Shown here piece by piece: positions 23,867 through 38,987 of a stretch of DNA of 64,000 nucleotides. Made by a program: the position numbers and the translations under genes. Position 1 is the first letter of the stretch; every line of letters starts with the position of its first letter. The stretch is from an uncultured Flavobacteriaceae bacterium (lineage in GTDB: Bacteria > Bacteroidota > Bacteroidia > Flavobacteriales > Flavobacteriaceae). The stretch spans positions 1 to 64,000 of the forward strand of contig CAKZOO010000067.1 in assembly GCA_937136455.1 (NCBI GenBank), read 5' to 3'. The notes beneath the pieces were generated by a model, which was not told the origin of the DNA, ran no database searches, and was given only the letters and a program-made list of their open reading frames with translations.

Positions 23867-23879
23867 CATTCTAAATTAA

Positions 23880-24013
23880 AAGAGGAAGGATTTGACTGAT
23901 TGCAACCTCTTGTAGAAAATTCTACAAAAAAAATTGCTAAAGCAGTTGTTTCGGTATCTTATCGTGACATTCTACCTAGCCAATCCTTCCTACCTATAAA
24001 ACAATAAAAGGAT
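23880..24013 (+). promoter_or_regulatory. SAM-II class riboswitch with downstream switch helix in the metK leader
   Basis: P1 is AAGAGG (23880-23885) with CCTCTT (23906-23911). Its loop contains GATTTG (23889-23894) and TTGCAA (23900-23905), as in SAM-II aptamers. The 3' strand TTGC-TAAAG-CAGT (23934-23946) carries the conserved GCTAAA and closes an H-type pseudoknot in the correct order: TTGC with GCAA (23902-23905), and CAGT with ACTG (23895-23898). An extra hairpin (23911-23926) sits in the linker. Downstream, AATCCTTCCT (23982-23991) is exactly complementary to AGGAAGGATT (23883-23892) inside the aptamer. Part of it, ATCCTT, also pairs with AAGGAT (24008-24013), covering the metK start. 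Proposed logic: SAM bound means start codon masked. Class assignment rests on motif matching by eye. Confidence 0.78.
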
Positions 24014-29860: not shown

Positions 29861-32800
29861 TTGGCAACAAAAAAAGACATAGTAGCTCAATTAGAAAAAC
29901 GCATTTTAGTACTCGATGGAGCCATGGGAACCATGATTCAAGAGTACAAATTTACGGAAGAGGATTATCGTGGTAAGCGATTCGCAGATTGGCCTTCTCC
30001 ACTTCAGGGGAATAATGATTTATTAACCCTAACCCAGCCAGAGGCGATTAAGACCATTCATCGCAAATACGCTGAGGCGGGTGCAGATATCATAGAAACC
30101 AATACCTTCTCTTGTACGACCATTGCTATGGAAGATTACCAGATGCAAGAATTGGTCTATGAGTTAAATTTTGAGGCTGTTAAACTCGCCAAAGAAGTCT
30201 GTGATGAGTTTACGAAAAAAGACCCTTCAAAACCTCGCTTTGTAGCAGGGAGTGTCGGGCCTACCAACAAGACAGCAAGTTTGTCGCCTGATGTCAATAA
30301 TCCTGGTTTTAGAGCCATTTCATTTGAAGAGTTAAGAACAGCCTATAAGCAACAGGTCGACGCTCTGGTAGACGCAGGTGTTGATATCATATTAGTCGAG
30401 ACCATCTTTGATACCTTAAATGCAAAGGCGGCATTATTTGCTATCGAAGCGGTTAATAAGGAACGCTCGATCGATTTGCCGATTATGATCAGTGGTACCA
30501 TTACAGATGCTTCTGGTAGAACTCTTTCTGGACAAACGGCTGAAGCCTTTTTAATTTCGATGGCACATGCTAATTTGTTATCCATTGGTTTTAACTGTGC
30601 CTTAGGTGCTGATGCCTTGACTCCACATCTAGAAGTTTTGGCACAGAAAGCTCCTTTTGCAGTATCGGCTCACCCAAATGCTGGTTTGCCAAATGCTTTT
30701 GGAGAATACGATGAGACAGCCAAACAGATGGCTGCTCAAATAAAGAATTATATCGAAAAAGGTCTGGTCAATATTGTTGGAGGTTGCTGTGGAACAAGGC
30801 CAGAACACATAGCAGCTATTGCTCAGGAAGCTTCAAAGGGAAAGCCAAGAGTATTTGGTCAGTCTAAGGATCATCAAATGAAACTCTCTGGCTTAGAACC
30901 TCTAGTAATTACTCCAGAAAGTAATTTTATCAATGTTGGAGAACGTACCAATGTGGCAGGTTCTCGAAAATTCCTTCGACTCATCAAGGATCGCTTGTTT
31001 GATGAGGCTCTTGACATTGCAAGAGATCAAGTAGATAATGGTGCTCAGATTATCGACATCAATATGGACGATGGTCTAATCGACGGTAAGGAGGCTATGG
31101 TAGAATTCTTAAATCTTATTGTTTCTGAACCTGATATTTCAAAGGTTCCCATTATGATAGATTCTTCTAAATGGGAGATTATTGAAGCGGGTCTTCAGGT
31201 CGTTCAAGGAAAATGTGTAGTAAATTCCATTTCACTTAAAGAAGGAGAAGAGAATTTTATCCAACAAGCTACATCCATTAAACAATATGGCGCAGCTGTT
31301 ATTGTGATGGCTTTTGATGAGGTAGGACAAGCTGATAATTACGATCGCAGAATTGAAATAGCCAAAAGATCTTATGATATTTTGGTAGATCAAGTGAATT
31401 TCCCAGCAGAGGATATCATTTTTGATCTCAATATATTTCCAGTTGCTACGGGGATGGATGAACACCGAAAAAATGCGATAGATTTTATCGAAGCGACGCG
31501 ATGGGTACGAGAAAACTTACCGCATTGTAGTGTGTCTGGAGGTGTGAGTAATGTGTCCTTTAGTTTTAGAGGAAACAATCCAGTTCGTGAAGCCATGCAT
31601 TCGGTGTTCTTATATCACGCGATTAAAGCGGGAATGAATATGGGAATTGTCAATCCTGCTTTATTAGAAGTATACGATGACATTCCAAAAGACCTTTTAG
31701 AGCAGGTTGAAGATGTTATCTTAGATCGAAGAGATGATGCAACTGAACGTTTATTAGACTTTGCTGAAACGGTAGTGGGGACTGCAAAAGAATCTAAAAT
31801 AGATCTCTCTTGGAGAGAAGAGCCGCTCCAAAACAGAATCACTAGAGCACTCGTAAAGGGAATCGACTCCTACATTATTGAAGATGTAGAAGAAGCTAGA
31901 TTAGCCAGTAAGAAAACGATCGAAGTCATCGAAGGCAATTTGATGATTGGAATGAATGTAGTTGGAGATCTCTTTGGTGATGGTAAGATGTTCTTGCCAC
32001 AAGTGGTCAAGTCGGCTCGTGTAATGAAAAAGGCGGTAGCCTATTTGTTGCCCTTTATCGAAATTGAGAACAATCAATCAGGTGAGAAGACCAAGGCAGC
32101 TGGTAAGATATTAATGGCGACTGTCAAGGGTGATGTACACGATATCGGTAAGAATATCGTATCGGTCGTTTTAGCTTGTAACAATTATGAAATAGTGGAT
32201 CTCGGAGTGATGGTTCCGCCTGAAAAGATTATTGCCAAGGCCAAGGAAGAACAAGTGGATGTTATTGGACTCAGTGGACTGATTACTCCATCCCTAGATG
32301 AAATGGTGTTCTTAGCTAAAGAAATGAAACGCGAAGGATTTCAAATACCATTACTCATTGGGGGAGCAACGACTTCTAAGGCACATACTGCTGTGAAGAT
32401 TGCACCAGAATACCCATATGGAGTAGTTCATGTCAATGATGCTTCTAGAGCGGTAACGGTGGTTGGAGACTTGCTTCAAGAGGAAACAAGTGATCGTTAC
32501 AAACAGGAAATCCAAAACGAGTACCAGGAGTTTGCCCAGAAGTTCTTGGCTAGAACCAAAAAGAAAACCTATGTGTCCCTTGTCGATGCAAGAGCCGATA
32601 AAGTAGCTCTGAATTGGGATCAATTTCAAGCAGTAGAACCAAAGGAGAAAGGGATTAAGGTTTTAGACTTAAACCTCAATGATCTTAAGGAGTTTATCGA
32701 TTGGACTCCCTTTTTTAGATCCTGGGATTTACACGGAAAATATCCTGCTATTTTAACCGATGAGGTTGTTGGAGAACAAGCGGCGAGCTTGTACAAAGAC

Positions 32801-33523
32801 GCTCTTGGTACTTTAGAGGAACTCATCGTTCAAAAGCAACTACAAGCCAAAGCTGTTTTTGGAATTTTTGAGGCTAATAGTAATGATAGTGATGATATCG
32901 AACTTGCCAATGGCAAAGTATTTAGAACCCTTCGCCAACAGCTCAAGAAGCGAGATGGAGCTTCTTACAGGGCGCTTAGCGACTATATAGCACCTAAATC
33001 ATCAAATGTGACTGATTATATAGGAACTTTCTGTGTGTCGGTATTTGGAGCAGATGAACTAGCAAAACAGCACCAGCAAAATCACGATGACTACAACTCC
33101 ATCATGGTTAAAGCGATCGCTGACCGTTTTGCCGAAGCAGCTGCTGAATACCTCCACAAAGAGGTTCGAACCAATTATTGGGGGTATGCTAAGGATGAGG
33201 ATTTAACTAATGATCAGCTCATCGGTGAACAGTATAAGGGAATTAGGCCTGCCCCAGGCTATCCAGCTTGTCCAGATCACTTAGAAAAAGAAACGATTTG
33301 GGAATTATTAGATGTCGAAAATGTAATTGGGGTAACGCTTACTGAAAGTCTGGCCATGTGGCCTGCAGCATCCGTATCCGGATACTATTTTGCACATCCC
33401 GAGGCCAAGTATTTTGGAGTTGGAAAAATAACTAAAGAACAATTAGAGGAGTACGCCCAAAGAAAGGGAATAGCGATTGAAAAGGCAGAAAAGTGGCTCG
33501 CTCCAAATTTAGCAAACGAATAA
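29861..33523 (+). CDS. metH: cobalamin-dependent methionine synthase, full length
   Basis: 1220 residues with all four modules in the E. coli order. The homocysteine domain has Zn ligands Cys ~246 (GFNCALGA) and Cys ~308-309 ([10 protein letters not shown]). The methyltetrahydrofolate domain is at about 350-620 ([16 protein letters not shown]). The B12 domain has [10 protein letters not shown] with cobalt ligand His760. The SAM-dependent reactivation domain is at about 900-1220 ([13 protein letters not shown]). It methylates homocysteine to methionine. The start codon appears to be TTG, because [23 protein letters not shown] matches the family and no in-frame ATG fits. It lies 12 bases after metZ. 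Confidence 0.96.
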
Positions 33524-33527
33524 GATT

Positions 33528-34478
33528 ATGAAAATTACCGATCATATCAATCAGGCAAAAGACACCTTGTTTTCTTTTGAAATCGTCCCTCCAGTGAAAG
33601 GGAAGGGAATACAGGAATTGTTCAACAATATCGATCCGCTAATGGAATTTAAGCCTCCCTTTATCGATGTGACTACCTCGAGAGAACAGGCCATTTACAT
33701 TCAAAAAGAGGGTGGATTGGAAAAACAGATCACCAGAACCAGACCAGGAACGGTGGGAATCTGTGCTTCGATTATGAATAAATACAAGATCGATGCGGTT
33801 CCTCATGTGATCTGTGGAGGTTTTACCAAAGAAGAAACCGAGTATATGCTGGTTGATTGTCAGTATTTGGGAATTGAAAATGTGATGGCACTAAGAGGAG
33901 ATGCTCGTAGAGAAGAGGCATTTTTCACTCCGACAAAGGGAGGGCATACCTATGCATCAGAGCTCGTTACTCAAATAAAGAATTTAAACAAAGGAAAGTT
34001 TCTGTACGAATCAACAGAGGATGGAGTCTTTTCTGATTTCTGTGTAGGAGTAGCTGGATATCCAGAAAAACATATGGAGGCTCCTTCGCTAAAGACCGAC
34101 TTACAAAGATTACAACACAAGGTAGAACAGGGAGCTGATTATGTCGTAACACAGATGTTTTTTGACAATCAAAAGTATTTTGAGTTTGTAGAGGCTGCAA
34201 GAGCTATGGGAATCACTATTCCAATCATACCAGGAATTAAACCGATTGCAGTAAAGCGTCATTTAAATATCTTACCACAGGTATTTAAAATAGACCTTCC
34301 ACAAGATTTAGTCGAAGCAGTGGAAGCTGCTAAGGATAATAAAGCTGTTAGAGAGGTAGGAACCGAGTGGGCAATTCAACAATCCAAAGAGCTCAAAGAG
34401 GCTGGAGTACCAGTTCTTCACTACTATTCTATGGGTAAATCAGACAATATTTACAATATTGCAAAAGCCTTGTTTTAG
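33528..34478 (+). CDS. metF: methylenetetrahydrofolate reductase
   Basis: A 316-residue FAD-dependent TIM-barrel enzyme that makes 5-methyltetrahydrofolate, the methyl donor for MetH encoded four bases upstream. SFEIVPPVKGKG carries the catalytic Glu near the N-terminus; VMALRGDARR, YVVTQMFFDNQKYFEFVEAAR and IPIIPGIKPI are family segments. It is the last gene of the SAM-controlled operon; I find no strong terminator after it. Confidence 0.96.
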   Translation: MKITDHINQAKDTLFSFEIVPPVKGKGIQELFNNIDPLMEFKPPFIDVTTSREQAIYIQKEGGLEKQITRTRPGTVGICASIMNKYKIDAVPHVICGGFTKEETEYMLVDCQYLGIENVMALRGDARREEAFFTPTKGGHTYASELVTQIKNLNKGKFLYESTEDGVFSDFCVGVAGYPEKHMEAPSLKTDLQRLQHKVEQGADYVVTQMFFDNQKYFEFVEAARAMGITIPIIPGIKPIAVKRHLNILPQVFKIDLPQDLVEAVEAAKDNKAVREVGTEWAIQQSKELKEAGVPVLHYYSMGKSDNIYNIAKALF

Positions 34479-34886: not shown

Positions 34887-34917
34887 TTTGCTCAAATAAA
34901 TTTTAATACTAAATTAG
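34887..34917 (+). promoter_or_regulatory. putative promoter of the pheA operon (TTTG, 19 nt, TAAATTAG)
   Basis: A -33 TTTG at 34887-34890 is followed after 19 bases by TAAATTAG, one mismatch from TAnnTTTG. Transcription would start near 34923, a few bases before the leader-peptide RBS (AAAGGAAAT) and its ATG at 34936. Confidence 0.55.
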
Positions 34918-34935
34918 CAGCTCAATAAAGGAAAT

Positions 34936-34992
34936 ATGAACACTCAATTTTATACTAACGCTTATTTTTACTTCTATTTTAATAGGGGCTAG
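34936..34992 (+). CDS. pheL: Phe/Tyr-rich leader peptide of the pheA operon
   Basis: An 18-codon frame encodes MNTQFYTNAYFYFYFNRG and then TAG. It has four Phe and four Tyr codons, six of them in an unbroken YFYFYF run at 34963-34980, so ribosomes would stall there when charged Phe- or Tyr-tRNA is scarce. AAAGGA lies five to ten bases before the ATG. The frame sits between a promoter and a terminator, in front of genes for phenylalanine and tyrosine synthesis. It is a regulatory peptide, not expected to work as a protein. Confidence 0.88.
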   Translation: MNTQFYTNAYFYFYFNRG

Positions 34993-35060
34993 GGGCTTTA
35001 TATAGTATTTGAGAAATCAACATAAAATTATAGAAGTCCCGCAAGAGCGGGATTTTTTTT
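34992..35060 (+). terminator. transcription attenuator with alternative antiterminator, pheA leader
   Basis: Terminator: TCCCGC (35037-35042), loop AAGA, GCGGGA (35047-35052), eight T or more, ending four bases before the pheA ATG. Antiterminator: GGGGCTTTATA (34992-35002) pairs with TATAGAAGTCCC (35029-35040) through eleven pairs with one bulged G, and it uses up the 5' arm of the terminator stem. The antiterminator 5' strand begins on the last base of the leader stop codon. A ribosome that finishes the peptide masks it, allowing termination; one stalled in YFYFYF leaves it free. Confidence 0.88.
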
Positions 35061-35064
35061 TAAA

Positions 35065-35892
35065 ATGAGTTTAACAATAGCAATACAAGGGATCAAGGGG
35101 TCCAATCACCATCAAGTAGCTTTAGACTATTTTGGAACTGATATTACACTCAGCGAGTGTGATAGCTTTGATCAAATGGTTCGTCAGATACTCGATGGTA
35201 GTGTTGATAAGGGAGTGATGGCCATAGAGAATTCTATAGCAGGTTCAATTATTCCAAACTATGCACTTGTTCATCACAACAAGCTTCATATTATTGGAGA
35301 ACACTATTTGAATATTCATCATCATCTTATGGCTTTAGAAGGCCAATCGCTAGAGGATATTAAAGAGGTTCACTCTCATCCTATGGCGCTTCTTCAGTGT
35401 AAAAAATTCTTTGATGACTACCCACATATTAAGTTAGTGGAGACTAGTGATACTGCTGATTCTGCTAAACATATTCAGGAGCAAAAGCTCAAAGGTATTG
35501 CTGCTATTGCTCCAAAAAAAGCAGCTGAATTATACCATCTGGAAATCATCGCAGATGATATTCAGACGATTAAACACAATTCGACTCGTTTTATCATTAT
35601 AAAGGCAAGCAACAAGGAACTTCCAAAGAGTGAAATCAACAAGGCGTCACTTCGTTTTGTTCTCGATCACAAAAGAGGATCCCTCGCTACGGTGCTAAAC
35701 GTATTAAGTGATTGTTCGATTAACCTTACAAAGATTCAATCCCTTCCAGTGATTGATGTGCCTTGGAAATATGCCTTTTTTGTTGATGTGACCTTTGACA
35801 AGTATGAAGACTACCAAAAAGCCCATTCATTATTGGAGATTATGGCAGAAGAATTTTTAGTCTTAGGGGAATATAAAAATGCTCGATTATGA
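35065..35892 (+). CDS. pheA: prephenate dehydratase
   Basis: A 275-residue enzyme that converts prephenate to phenylpyruvate. The periplasmic-binding-protein-like catalytic half spans 1-180: GSNHHQVALDYFG, GVMAIENSIAGSI, and NSTRFIII with the catalytic TRF. A C-terminal ACT domain from about 193 (LRFVLDHKRGSLATVLNVLSD; LTKIQSLPV) is the usual site of Phe feedback. No chorismate mutase is fused here; that activity is carried by the fourth gene of the operon. It begins four bases after the attenuator T-run and overlaps the next gene by four bases (ATGA). Confidence 0.95.
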   Translation: MSLTIAIQGIKGSNHHQVALDYFGTDITLSECDSFDQMVRQILDGSVDKGVMAIENSIAGSIIPNYALVHHNKLHIIGEHYLNIHHHLMALEGQSLEDIKEVHSHPMALLQCKKFFDDYPHIKLVETSDTADSAKHIQEQKLKGIAAIAPKKAAELYHLEIIADDIQTIKHNSTRFIIIKASNKELPKSEINKASLRFVLDHKRGSLATVLNVLSDCSINLTKIQSLPVIDVPWKYAFFVDVTFDKYEDYQKAHSLLEIMAEEFLVLGEYKNARL

Positions 35893-37037
35893 TTGAAAAT
35901 GCCAATAGATTACAATCAGTAAAAGAATACTACTTCTCTCAAAAATTGAGAGAGGTTAGAGGACTAGTGTCCCAAGGAAGGCCAATCATCAATATGGGAA
36001 TAGGTTCTCCAGATTTGCCACCTTCTCAAAAGGTGCTCGATGCGCTTACTGATGCTATTTCGCATCCATCAGCACATCAATACCAATCGTATCAGGGACT
36101 ACCTGAGTTAAGAGAGGAGATGGCGAATTTTTACAGGACCTATTACGGAGTTTCTCTTGATCCAACTAGTGAAGTATTACCACTGATGGGATCCAAAGAG
36201 GGAATCATGCATATTTCTATGGCCTTCTTAAATCCAGGAGATAAGGTGTTGGTTCCAAATCCTGGATATCCAACCTATACCTCTGTAACGCGCTTGGTTG
36301 AAGCAGAGCCTTTGTTTTACAATTTAGAAGAAAAACACAATTGGTTTCCACAGGTTGCAGATCTAGAAAAAATGGATTTAAGTGGGGTAAAACTCATGTG
36401 GCTAGGATACCCTCATATGCCTACGGGTGCTATAGCAAAAGATGCTGATTTAGAAGCTTTAATAGCCTTTGCTCATAAGCATCAAATATTATTAGTTAAA
36501 GACAACCCTTACAGTTTTGTGCTCAACAAAACGCCCAAGAGTATCCTTGCCTTTGAAGGAGCTAAAGAAGTCGTTTTAGAACTCAATTCGCTTTCAAAGT
36601 CATTTAATATGGCAGGTTGGAGAGTTGGAATGCTCATGGGAAGAGCTGATTTAGTAGAATCGGTACTCAAAGTAAAAAGCAATATGGATTCTGGAATGTT
36701 TTACGGAATTCAAAAAGGAGCTATAGAAGCCTTAAAAGCACCTAAATCATGGTTTGATGGACTTAATGAAATTTACACCAAACGCAGAAAGGCCATCTTC
36801 GCATTAGCTGACAAACTCAATTTGAATTATGATCCTTCAGCTGTAGGAATGTTTGTGTGGGCAAAGATTGGCGATAATCATACCACAAGTGAAATGTTGG
36901 TGGATCAACTTTTATACGAGCATGACATCTTCATCGCACCTGGAACGATATTTGGATCGAATGGAGAAGGCTATGTGCGTTTTTCACTTTGTGTCCCTGA
37001 AGAAAAAATTGTCGAAGCATTAAATCGATTTAATTAA
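35889..37037 (+). CDS. class I/II aminotransferase (aromatic/aspartate type)
   Basis: A 382-residue fold-type I PLP enzyme. The Schiff-base Lys237 is in LNSLSKSFNMAGWRVGM. GIGSPDLPPSQKVLDAL at the N-terminus and NPGYPTY are family features, with an Arg near the C-terminus (EGYVRFSLC) for the alpha-carboxylate. Because it is sandwiched between pheA and tyrA with a four-base overlap, it most likely transaminates phenylpyruvate and 4-hydroxyphenylpyruvate to Phe and Tyr; sequence alone does not exclude an aspartate or LL-DAP type specificity. Confidence 0.85.
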   Translation: MIENANRLQSVKEYYFSQKLREVRGLVSQGRPIINMGIGSPDLPPSQKVLDALTDAISHPSAHQYQSYQGLPELREEMANFYRTYYGVSLDPTSEVLPLMGSKEGIMHISMAFLNPGDKVLVPNPGYPTYTSVTRLVEAEPLFYNLEEKHNWFPQVADLEKMDLSGVKLMWLGYPHMPTGAIAKDADLEALIAFAHKHQILLVKDNPYSFVLNKTPKSILAFEGAKEVVLELNSLSKSFNMAGWRVGMLMGRADLVESVLKVKSNMDSGMFYGIQKGAIEALKAPKSWFDGLNEIYTKRRKAIFALADKLNLNYDPSAVGMFVWAKIGDNHTTSEMLVDQLLYEHDIFIAPGTIFGSNGEGYVRFSLCVPEEKIVEALNRFN

Positions 37038-37038
37038 G

Positions 37039-37896
37039 ATGAATGTATTTTTAATCGGTGTTGGTTTAATAGGAGGGTCTTTTGCTAAGGACCTTAGAAT
37101 TCAATACCCTGATACTAATTTCTTCGGAATCAGTAGAAGAGAGGCAACTCTTGACAAGGCTGTGGAGCTAGGAATTATAGACCACAAAGCTACAATGGAG
37201 GATTTGTCAAAGGCTGATGTCGTAATACTTAGTATTCCAGTGGATGTCAGTGTTCCAGTTCTTGTCGATGTATTGGATCGTATTTCTGAAAAATGCTTGG
37301 TTTTTGACGCAGGATCGATCAAAGAACCGATTTGTGAGGCAGTGAAGAATCATCCCAATCGCAAAAACTTTTTAGCATGTCACCCTATTGCAGGTACTGA
37401 ATTTTCTGGACCAGAAGCAGCATTAGAGGGTCTGTATCAAAACAAGACTATGATTATTTGTGAAGTGGAAGCCACCGCTTTTAAACTTCAAGAAAAAGCA
37501 GTAGAGCTCTTTAGAGCAATAGGGATGCGCATTCGATATATGAATGCCAAGTCACACGACAAGCACATTGCATATGTGTCGCATCTATCACATATTAGCT
37601 CTTTTATGTTAGGGAAGACGGTTATTGAAAAGGAAAAGAATGAAAATGATATTTTTGACATGGCTGGATCAGGTTTTGAAAGCACGGTTCGACTTGCCAA
37701 AAGTTCACCTGCAATGTGGACCCCCATATTTGCTGAAAATAAATCTAATGTCATTGAAGCATTAGAAGAATATATCTCTAATTTAACAGCATTCAAAAAA
37801 TTGATGGAAGATGATTCTTACGAGGCTGTTTTTAACGAGATGGAACAAACGAATAAAATAAAGGAAATATTAAATGGGATTCCCCATAATAATTAA
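37039..37896 (+). CDS. tyrA: prephenate dehydrogenase
   Basis: A 285-residue NAD-dependent oxidative decarboxylase giving 4-hydroxyphenylpyruvate, the tyrosine precursor. The N-terminal Rossmann motif is IGVGLIGGSFAKDL; the catalytic His lies in ACHPIAGTEFSGPEAA; SHDKHIAYVSHLSHISSFML and DMAGSGFESTVRLAKSSPAMW complete the signature. One base separates it from the aminotransferase gene. It has no ACT domain, so tyrosine control may rest on the leader attenuator. Confidence 0.94.
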   Translation: MNVFLIGVGLIGGSFAKDLRIQYPDTNFFGISRREATLDKAVELGIIDHKATMEDLSKADVVILSIPVDVSVPVLVDVLDRISEKCLVFDAGSIKEPICEAVKNHPNRKNFLACHPIAGTEFSGPEAALEGLYQNKTMIICEVEATAFKLQEKAVELFRAIGMRIRYMNAKSHDKHIAYVSHLSHISSFMLGKTVIEKEKNENDIFDMAGSGFESTVRLAKSSPAMWTPIFAENKSNVIEALEEYISNLTAFKKLMEDDSYEAVFNEMEQTNKIKEILNGIPHNN

Positions 37897-37904
37897 TTAA
37901 AACG

Positions 37905-38987
37905 ATGGAAAATTCAAAGAATTTGAGAAAGTGGTTGGATGATATGAACTTAGATCATCCCCTAGTGATTGCAGGACCCTGTAGTGCTGAAACAGAAGAG
38001 CAAGTATTAAAAATAGCTCATGAGCTTAAAGATACTGATGTCAATTATTTTAGAGCAGGTATTTGGAAACCTAGAACAAGACCAGGAGGATTTGAAGGTG
38101 TTGGCGCTTTGGGATTAAAATGGTTACAAAAAGTTAGAGAAGAGACGGGATTAAAAACAGCTACTGAAGTTGCCAACAAAGATCACGTTAAACTCGCTTT
38201 GGAATACGATGTTGATTTATTGTGGATTGGAGCTCGTTCTACCGTATCTCCGTTTATTATTCAAGAAATTGCTGATGAATTAAAAGGGACTGATAAGATT
38301 GTTCTTATTAAGAATCCTGTGAATCCAGATTTAGCATTGTGGTTAGGTGCTGTTGAGCGTTTGTACAATGCCGGTATTAAAAACTTAGGAGTGATTCACA
38401 GAGGATTCTCTACTTATGAGAAAACAAAGTACAGAAATATTCCAGAATGGCAATTAGCGATTGAATTGCAACAAAGATTCCCTGATTTACCAATCATCAA
38501 CGACCCTTCTCATATTACGGGGAAAAGAGACATGGTTCACGAAGTTTGTCAGACTGCACTTGATTTGAATTTTGATGGATTAATGGTTGAAACACATCAC
38601 GATCCAGATAATGCATGGTCTGATGCACCTCAACAAGTGACACCTGCTTCCTTGATTAAAATGATGAAGGATTTAAAAGTGCGTAAGCAAAATGATCCTG
38701 AACAGGCATTTAACAATGAAATTGGAACGCTTCGTTCTCAAATCGATGTGATCGATGAGCAATTGTTAGAGAGCTTAGGGAAACGTATGAAAATTTCAGA
38801 TGCAATTGGACAACTAAAAGAAGCACACAACGTTTCTGTATTACAGAGCAGTCGTTGGAATGAAATTTTAGGAAGAATGATTTTAGAAGGTGAAAAGAGA
38901 AATCTATCTGAAGAGTTTGTTTTAAAATTGTTTAAAGCGATTCACCAAGAGTCGATTAATCATCAAGAAAAAATTGTAAACCACTAA
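37905..38987 (+). CDS. bifunctional DAHP synthase / chorismate mutase
   Basis: A 360-residue fusion. Residues 1-265 are a 3-deoxy-7-phosphoheptulonate synthase of the KdsA-like type (PLVIAGPCSAETEEQ; VHRGFSTYEK-like region; PIINDPSHITGKRDMV). Residues from about 268 form an AroQ-type chorismate mutase helix bundle (EIGTLRSQIDVIDEQLLESLGKRMKISDAIGQLK). It catalyses both the first step of the shikimate pathway and the chorismate to prephenate step that feeds pheA and tyrA of the same operon. The mutase domain often also confers feedback inhibition on the synthase. A terminator follows within ten bases. Confidence 0.93.
   Translation: MENSKNLRKWLDDMNLDHPLVIAGPCSAETEEQVLKIAHELKDTDVNYFRAGIWKPRTRPGGFEGVGALGLKWLQKVREETGLKTATEVANKDHVKLALEYDVDLLWIGARSTVSPFIIQEIADELKGTDKIVLIKNPVNPDLALWLGAVERLYNAGIKNLGVIHRGFSTYEKTKYRNIPEWQLAIELQQRFPDLPIINDPSHITGKRDMVHEVCQTALDLNFDGLMVETHHDPDNAWSDAPQQVTPASLIKMMKDLKVRKQNDPEQAFNNEIGTLRSQIDVIDEQLLESLGKRMKISDAIGQLKEAHNVSVLQSSRWNEILGRMILEGEKRNLSEEFVLKLFKAIHQESINHQEKIVNH

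Follow-up and report, generated by a model that had tools for sequence, protein, structure and literature searches.

What controls the pheA operon of an uncultured Flavobacteriaceae bacterium, and does the DNA immediately preceding that operon, i.e., positions 34887-35064, supply that control? These positions lie in a window of 64,000 nucleotides, the window here being that whole stretch, as found within a Flavobacteriaceae genome bin whose nearest named record is isolate HF-Dia05 (98% PheA identity). The bin itself is 4.06 Mb with 6.18% contamination, its 11 genus mates range from 1.4 to 2.7 Mb, and it perhaps is a mixed bin. An earlier note on this DNA had proposed an attenuator. By anatomy the element indeed falls into the known class of ribosome-mediated attenuators, an assignment that is well supported, and it reaches threshold with no Rfam leader family. 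Very probably it attenuates transcription in the trp/phe manner, through a ribosome. Its short leader frame, rich in Phe and Tyr (F/Y) codons, would most likely switch the pheA operon on or off according to how a ribosome reads it, as judged from comparison of sequences.

The features of the element and of the operon following it are collected in Table 1. The enzymes of that operon make both Phe and Tyr, with the ACT domain match of PheA falling below its curated cut-off. Gene order was considered among named loci, i.e., the best 80 of 120, which at 70% or greater PheA identity are close relatives and include a near twin of the window (L103). The aminotransferase gene adjoins pheA in 80/80 of these, tyrA is found in 78/80 and the DAHP synthase-chorismate mutase gene in 77/80, and all four genes occur in order in 77/80. 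The leader's upstream neighbour is the gene for MTHFR, with a promoter box between the two. MetH and MTHFR genes together occupy 29861-34478, just 5' of the leader, and a SAM-II riboswitch is present further upstream (23876-23950, + strand, 69.1 bits).

Table 1. Positions, in the window, of the leader element and of the operon genes that follow it.
Feature	Positions	Strand	Basis or detail
-33-like promoter element, TTTG	34887..34890	+	sequence; 19 bases 5' of the -7 box
-7 promoter element, TAAATTAG	34910..34917	+	TAnnTT[A/T]G box upstream of family leaders
Leader peptide frame, 18 codons + TAG, MNTQFYTNAYFYFYFNRG	34936..34992	+	4 Phe + 4 Tyr codons
Possible 1:2 hairpin inside leader frame, arms 34960-34977 / 34982-34996	34960..34996	+	fold of 34957-35004, -6.3 kcal/mol
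Strand 2, antiterminator 5' arm, GGGGCUUUAUAUA	34992..35004	+	RNAduplex; 2:3 covariation
Strand 3, antiterminator 3' arm and terminator 5' arm, UAUAGAAGUCCCGC	35029..35042	+	duplex; covariation
Strand 4 (GCGGGA) + intrinsic-terminator T-run	35047..35061	+	-15.5 kcal/mol; 3:4 covariation
pheA, prephenate dehydratase	35065..35892	+	PF00800, E 6.8e-60
Class I/II aminotransferase, operon gene 2	35889..37037	+	PF00155, E 6.5e-61
tyrA, prephenate dehydrogenase, operon gene 3	37039..37896	+	PF02153, E 8.9e-34
Fused DAHP synthase and chorismate mutase, operon gene 4	37905..38987	+	PF00793 + PF01817

As the earlier note had read it, the leader is an 18-codon frame with eight aromatic codons (ATG AAC ACT CAA TTT TAT ACT AAC GCT TAT TTT TAC TTC TAT TTT AAT AGG GGC TAG), i.e., four Phe plus four Tyr, and it lacks a Trp codon. 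Against a background F+Y frequency of 7.2%, as taken from eight neighbouring proteins, the binomial probability of at least eight F/Y among its 17 post-Met residues is about 1e-5. Runs of six F/Y codons are found, though, at 33 places in the same genome, versus 56 for a reversed control pattern. Because such a run is not rare genome-wide, it is context and conservation that serve as evidence here rather than the run itself.

Conservation was looked for upstream of the pheA genes of relatives, where an absence of the F/Y-rich frame or of the stems would speak against an attenuator; instead both the frame and covarying stems are kept. PheA was found in 268 of 299 family genomes, from which 30 loci were taken along with 60 more from among the matches listed. 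In the first set of 41 genus and family loci, window included, an F/Y leader precedes pheA in 39, with a frame like MTKQYFWNGFYFYFFFKRGTGLF; L012 and L013, the two loci lacking one, encode PheA proteins of only distant homology (25% and 29% identity). A leader is present as well at 59 of the 60 further family loci, 57 of these found at once and two more found further upstream, with none found before the pheA of G189. These 60 loci stand at 61-72% PheA identity, so the weakest PheA proteins are hardly sampled. The named loci (again the best 80 of 120), which include Maribacter, Zobellia, Muricauda/Allomuricauda and Cellulophaga, possess leaders in 79/80 cases, as compared with 3/514 control ORFs, i.e., other frames of 200 codons or more from the same DNA; the single miss among the 80 is that of Muriicola marianensis (L159), at which no leader was called. 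As expected of an attenuator, therefore, a short frame that is rich in codons for the operon's own products stands before the operon's first gene.

A fixed rule calling for both frame and terminator was used to score loci across a wider range of relatedness. Positive by this rule were 53/60 family loci (0/600 shuffles), 14/20 loci of an order set, four of the 20 being family members (0/400 shuffles), 21/35 of a class set (0/700 shuffles) and 2/19 from the rest of the phylum outside of the class (0/380 shuffles). Leaders thus were not called by the rule at 6/20 order-set, 14/35 class-set and 17/19 other-class loci. It is the stricter of the approaches used, as five loci that are negative there (L197, L210, L213, L230 and L233) nonetheless display leaders in other scans; L241, an order locus without a leader in its scan, is absent from the fixed-rule sets. 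The PheA proteins of the two positives found outside of the class, L247 (G538) and L262 (G579), match the window's with E values of 8e-72 and 3e-65. Among the outside-class genomes listed, G632 alone is as close in PheA, the rest being at 9e-46 or weaker. This combination in two genomes of a class-like PheA with a leader suggests either horizontal transfer or misplaced bins. Within the class, a prephenate dehydratase domain is found in 29/99 genomes, with no Pfam match at E <= 0.001 in 70.

Two sets of leaders were carried forward. The first consists of 96 family leaders, i.e., 98 frames minus those of L012, a distant homologue lacking a terminator, and L085, which is a spurious TTG frame. An inner ATG was chosen for L037, L052 and L083, and the further-upstream leaders of L058 and L077 (as L242 and L243) are not among the 96. 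The second consists of 42 wider leaders, drawn from the sets for order, class and phylum and chosen after the leader scan of those loci. These include weak ones (L220, L226 and L239), family members (L187, L188, L189 and L206) and near copies (L190, L191 and L192).

The proposed promoter, TTTG-N19-TAAATTAG, is present in the window at 34887-34917. A TAnnTT[A/T]G box is found within 75 nt upstream of the leader in 91/96 family leaders versus 10.9% of shuffled upstreams; TAnnTTTG is the -7 consensus given in PMC9723704. The ribosome binding site which had been included as a functional part does not hold up in the same manner. That is, AAAGGA is an RBS-like motif at the window's leader, but AGGA-like motifs at -18..-4 are found in just 3/96 family leaders, two of which are the window's and that of its near-identical relative, L003. 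A Shine-Dalgarno site, in other words, is not conserved among the 96. The GC-rich terminator, by contrast, is where it was said to be, right before pheA: positions 35032-35061 fold at -15.5 kcal/mol as a hairpin followed by nine T, with the T-run's end, at 35061, 3 nt 5' of the pheA ATG (35065). An intrinsic terminator thereby lies between leader and operon, as an attenuator should have. For 34921-35062 as a whole the folding z-score is -3.16, with 2/200 shuffles folding equally well.

A terminator alone does not make an attenuator, which should possess also an alternative, mutually exclusive helix. In the window the antiterminator, i.e., the 2:3 helix, shares the 5' arm of the terminator, i.e., of the 3:4 helix, such that only one of the two can form at a time. 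The antiterminator had been described as an 11-pair helix starting on the leader's stop codon. Its start is as described, with strand 2 beginning on the last base of that codon, whereas the pair count needs correcting: RNAduplex returns 12 pairs with one bulged A (34992-35004 with 35029-35040, -13.0 kcal/mol). Two main types of stem are seen within the family, one with leaders ending like TGL(L/F) and with a strand 2 of CGGGAC facing a strand 3 of GTCCCG, the other with leaders ending like ETLYV and with CGAGAC facing GTCTCG, and strand 4 nearly repeats strand 2. A MAFFT alignment places strand 2 of these two types one base out of register, and pairs for that reason were counted from anchored six-mers (strand 2 of L002 and L003 being set by hand) and additionally on an alignment, A1, of 96 rows, 94 of them distinct, that was cut to start at strand 2.

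Counted from the six-mers over the 96 loci, 558/576 cells of the 2:3 helix are standard pairs, where the maximum of 2000 shuffles is 542, and 575/576 cells of the 3:4 helix are paired. On A1, both sides have changed at 6/7 pairs of the 2:3 helix, involving 35 such cells versus a shuffled mean of 11.2 and with 0/500 shuffles as high. For the 3:4 helix, both sides have changed at 7/8 pairs, with 59 cells versus 20.0 shuffled; one of five measures there, further pair types, is reached by 28/500 shuffles. These counts are made with certain A1 rows, such as L014, L024, L043 and L051, one column off at strand 3 and therefore counting as broken pairs. Since the sequences share ancestry, shuffles that ignore this overstate significance, and better guards are slide controls and divergent loci. 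Upon sliding of the partner by one to three columns, paired cells fall from 91% to 24-52% for 2:3 and from 96% to 24-53% for 3:4. As to divergent loci, stems in the wider set, some of whose 42 members are closely related among themselves, often have other letters, such as GAGGCUUU/AAAGCCUC and GAGCGGUC/GACCGCUC, with pairing kept. The 2:3 duplex is better than shuffles (p <= 0.05) at 77/96 family loci and 32/42 wider loci. In that test the window's best strand-3 match is a stretch of the codon run; RNAduplex nevertheless favours strand 2 over the codon run as strand 3's partner, at -13.0 versus -8.0 kcal/mol. In two genomes from other families, at L223 and L226, pheA is preceded by a pair of F/Y leaders, one after the other and both with a GC hairpin and T-run of their own, i.e., attenuators in tandem; in the first of the L226 leaders the 2:3 duplex is not significant.

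Less can be said for a 1:2 helix. Across 41 equal-length, ungapped leaders RNAalifold does return one, in which codons 7-11 pair with strand 2 around an inner hairpin. Its pairs show a few alternative types and many G-U, a count that is confounded by coding constraint, and in the window this helix is weak (-6.3 kcal/mol). It would account, according to that fold, for the conservation of certain non-aromatic codons, namely those of N8-G9 and T-G-L. At equilibrium the RNA of the window, taken from strand 2 on, favours the terminator. With the terminator favoured once strand 4 is present, antitermination must be kinetic, as it is in other attenuators.

For a ribosome to choose between these helices, control codons should be so placed that a ribosome stalled upon them leaves strand 2 free, while one reaching the stop codon covers it. 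The last F/Y codon begins 13-14 nt ahead of the strand-2 six-mer in 89/96 family leaders (13 in the window), 16 nt ahead in five, and 12 and 9 nt ahead in one each. Among the 42 wider leaders it begins 10-15 nt ahead of the best strand-2 match in 34, as against 15.6% for shuffles. There is, consequently upon these distances, a firm comparative case that the spacing would approximate one ribosome footprint. The stop codon, on the other hand, shifts within the family, its start lying between 8 nt upstream and 17 nt downstream of the six-mer's first base, and early stops of the window's kind are seen again elsewhere (L046, L063, L070, L080, L082, L090 and L098). With the spacing near-fixed while the stop moves, it is the stall site that is held more than is the end of the peptide. 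Comparison thus establishes, at the level of sequence, the frame, both of the helices that strand 3 can enter (2:3 and 3:4) and the spacing, and to this extent, with stems conserved via compensatory changes, the phe/trp-type attenuator logic recognized previously is borne out.

The same placement can be modelled if the ribosome is assumed to reach 11 nt beyond the first base of its A-site codon, and the modelled step rests on that assumption. The mean probability over the 96 leaders of the 2:3 helix is then 0.99 while the last F/Y codon occupies the A site, falls to 0.77 after one further codon and to 0.05 after two, and is 0.003 once the stop codon is reached; it is higher at the last F/Y codon than at the stop in 96/96. 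By spacing and by this assumed-footprint model, therefore, the control codons are positioned as an attenuator's should be. With the ribosome left out, the 2:3 helix averages 0.67 and stands at 0.99 in the window, as from an equilibrium model that ignores the 1:2 helix being made before strand 3; the latter value implies that the 1:2 helix is no strong default in the window.

From these elements we infer stalling, a response to both amino acids, and a regulatory effect, as follows. RNA polymerase would start about 15 nt before the leader frame, judging from the -7 box, and a ribosome would translate the leader behind it. Given plentiful charged tRNA-Phe and tRNA-Tyr, this ribosome would pass the F/Y codons and cover strand 2, leaving strand 3 to pair with strand 4, and transcription would stop just before pheA. 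Were Phe or Tyr instead short, the ribosome would stall with an F/Y codon in its A site and strand 2 just outside of its footprint. Strand 2, then free, could pair with strand 3 before strand 4 is made, such that no terminator would form and the operon would be read. If the leader is left untranslated, a 1:2 helix would favour termination, a step with weaker support than the others.

Does such a leader sense both amino acids? Phe and Tyr codons both are present in 96/96 family leaders and in 42/42 wider leaders, a firm comparative case for the two kinds of codon together, and the operon makes both amino acids, which together support the dual readout that had been suggested. A Trp codon is found too in 66/96 family leaders and 10/42 wider leaders. 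One leader reading several aromatic tRNAs fits this codon content. It is conceivable, if unlikely, that an attenuator of the same type senses only one amino acid, most likely Phe, with the other aromatic codons being passengers of a T-rich run. Phe codons do outnumber those of Tyr, 574 to 319 over the 96 leaders; codons 14-16, the nearest to strand 2, mostly are Phe in the 41-leader set; and the enteric pheA leader is Phe-only. The ratio in the 42 wider leaders is less unequal, however, at 195 Phe to 151 Tyr, no leader of either set is without Tyr, and in the model strand 2 becomes exposed whichever F/Y codon the ribosome stalls at. With F and Y freely allowed, and both expected, this argues against selection for Phe alone and is no proof of Tyr sensing. 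A further idea, which we consider very improbable, is that sensing is of the amino acids themselves rather than of charged tRNAs, with a nascent aromatic peptide arresting the ribosome on free Phe or Tyr in the manner of TnaC. Aromatic residues indeed interchange within sites, e.g., site 7 is Trp, Phe or Tyr in 40/41 leaders, and some non-aromatic residues (N8 and G9) are conserved. N8-G9 and the C-terminal T-G-L nevertheless may owe their conservation to a place in the 1:2 and 2:3 helices, and leaders from other families are without an obvious common peptide motif, by eye, beyond their F/Y richness. The logic also would run the wrong way, because an excess of amino acid would open a biosynthetic operon.

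Two other accounts do without leader-based attenuation of transcription. That the T-run ends so near to the pheA ATG in the window is what would be seen were control instead translational, i.e., with the hairpin hiding the start site of pheA. Over the 96 family loci, though, the distance from T-run to gene varies from almost 0 to about 100 nt, with hairpin and T-run kept, and we hold this account to be very improbable indeed. Mere chance would have an AT-rich intergenic stretch happen to read as F/Y, next to what is just the ordinary terminator of the upstream MTHFR gene. Six-codon F/Y runs are common enough in the genome for the first half of this, even if fewer than for the control pattern. 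The conservation and covariation, the 53/60 family upstreams satisfying the leader-plus-terminator rule against 0/600 shuffles, and the promoter box sitting between MTHFR and leader reduce the likelihood of such a coincidence to nearly nothing. The preferred reading accordingly continues to be that of a ribosome-mediated attenuator.

How does such an attenuator compare with those already described? None of 4227 Rfam families is called at 34887-35064 at gathering thresholds. A T-box or riboswitch was considered and set aside, there being no covariance-model match at those positions, and the window's only gathering-level match is the SAM-II riboswitch noted above. A permissive scan does bring up Phe, Leu and Trp leaders there, at 20-28 bits and thus below threshold; membership in Phe_leader (RF01859) was rejected at 28 bits and E 0.01, versus a gathering threshold of 55. 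The enterobacterial pheA attenuator (pheL, RF01859) is alike in having a leader peptide that contains its operon's own amino acid, in its alternative helices and terminator and in standing before pheA. It differs in that leaders of the window's type code for Tyr, and in the above-noted 66/96 for Trp, besides Phe, lack a conserved Shine-Dalgarno sequence, and head an operon for both Phe and Tyr. The trp attenuator (Trp_leader, RF00513) is similar in its 2:3 and 3:4 helices, and would be so in a 1:2 helix, predicted here with weaker support, and in a stalled ribosome freeing strand 2. The window scores 20.3 bits against it, however (gathering, 41), most family members have a strand 2 that runs into the leader frame, and lineages differ in where the stop codon falls. 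That one leader may serve several amino acids is known from the Thr/Ile (thr) and Ile/Val/Leu (ilvGMEDA) leaders of E. coli, which are, by contrast, proteobacterial and concerned with other amino acids.

The switch type thus is classical, though little described in Bacteroidota. A comparative study by Vitreschak et al. in 2004 reportedly includes candidate attenuators in Bacteroidetes/Chlorobi. The suggestion of little description is a fair one that nevertheless is incomplete, as PMC9723704 names a pheA element and clues to attenuation. There, in the transcriptome of Flavobacterium psychrophilum, Guerin et al. (2021) report conserved, structured 5' elements upstream of pheA, hisG and others, the pheA element being kept in other genera and having no Rfam hits. 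Ahead of amino-acid operons they report 'strong clues' that leader peptides attenuate transcription (PMC9723704). The pheA element belongs to the same family, Flavobacteriaceae, and the same gene, which would suggest that it is the window's element; the main-text section of PMC9723704 shows neither a leader sequence nor helices or a spacing, and no range for it outside the family. A 'pheA' motif of Weinberg et al. (2010), a candidate RNA also named after pheA, differs, its listing being under Actinobacteria and showing no Rfam accession (PMC2864571). For Bacteroides thetaiotaomicron, a passage of PMC7366714 describes short frames in long 5' UTRs as 'reminiscent of leader peptides'.

Two further candidates are found in the window's own genome. 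Upstream of hisG (L267, G000:C179) is a His-codon leader, MKKIHSHHHIVNYFQTR, then a terminator, AGACCCGTTTGA/TCAAGCGGGTTT, which likely is a His attenuator. Upstream of trpE (L268, G000:C66) is a GTG-started frame, VNKNYTNTKWWWNSQS, with three consecutive Trp codons, followed by a hairpin with a weak T-run that was read by eye, the terminator scan having reported none; this is a possible Trp attenuator.

A larger proposal may be offered tentatively, as one that we think rather doubtful. It holds that a class-wide, ancient attenuator senses how far the tRNAs for Phe, Tyr and Trp are charged (codons for all three being found together in 66/96 family leaders) by means of a spacing of about one footprint, that this spacing is kept while stop codon, stem letters and peptide change, and that some lineages have doubled the device in series. 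If true, then in Bacteroidota, on mRNAs without Shine-Dalgarno sites, the ribosome must follow RNA polymerase closely. Translation in Bacteroidota starts without Shine-Dalgarno pairing, as described in PMC6847099, and the pheA leader would provide a clean, testable case of leader-peptide control in such a phylum. The leader alignment, moreover, could found an Rfam family. Since attenuation needs fast ribosome loading as well as following of the polymerase, this element would serve as a natural reporter of transcription-translation coupling in Bacteroidota.
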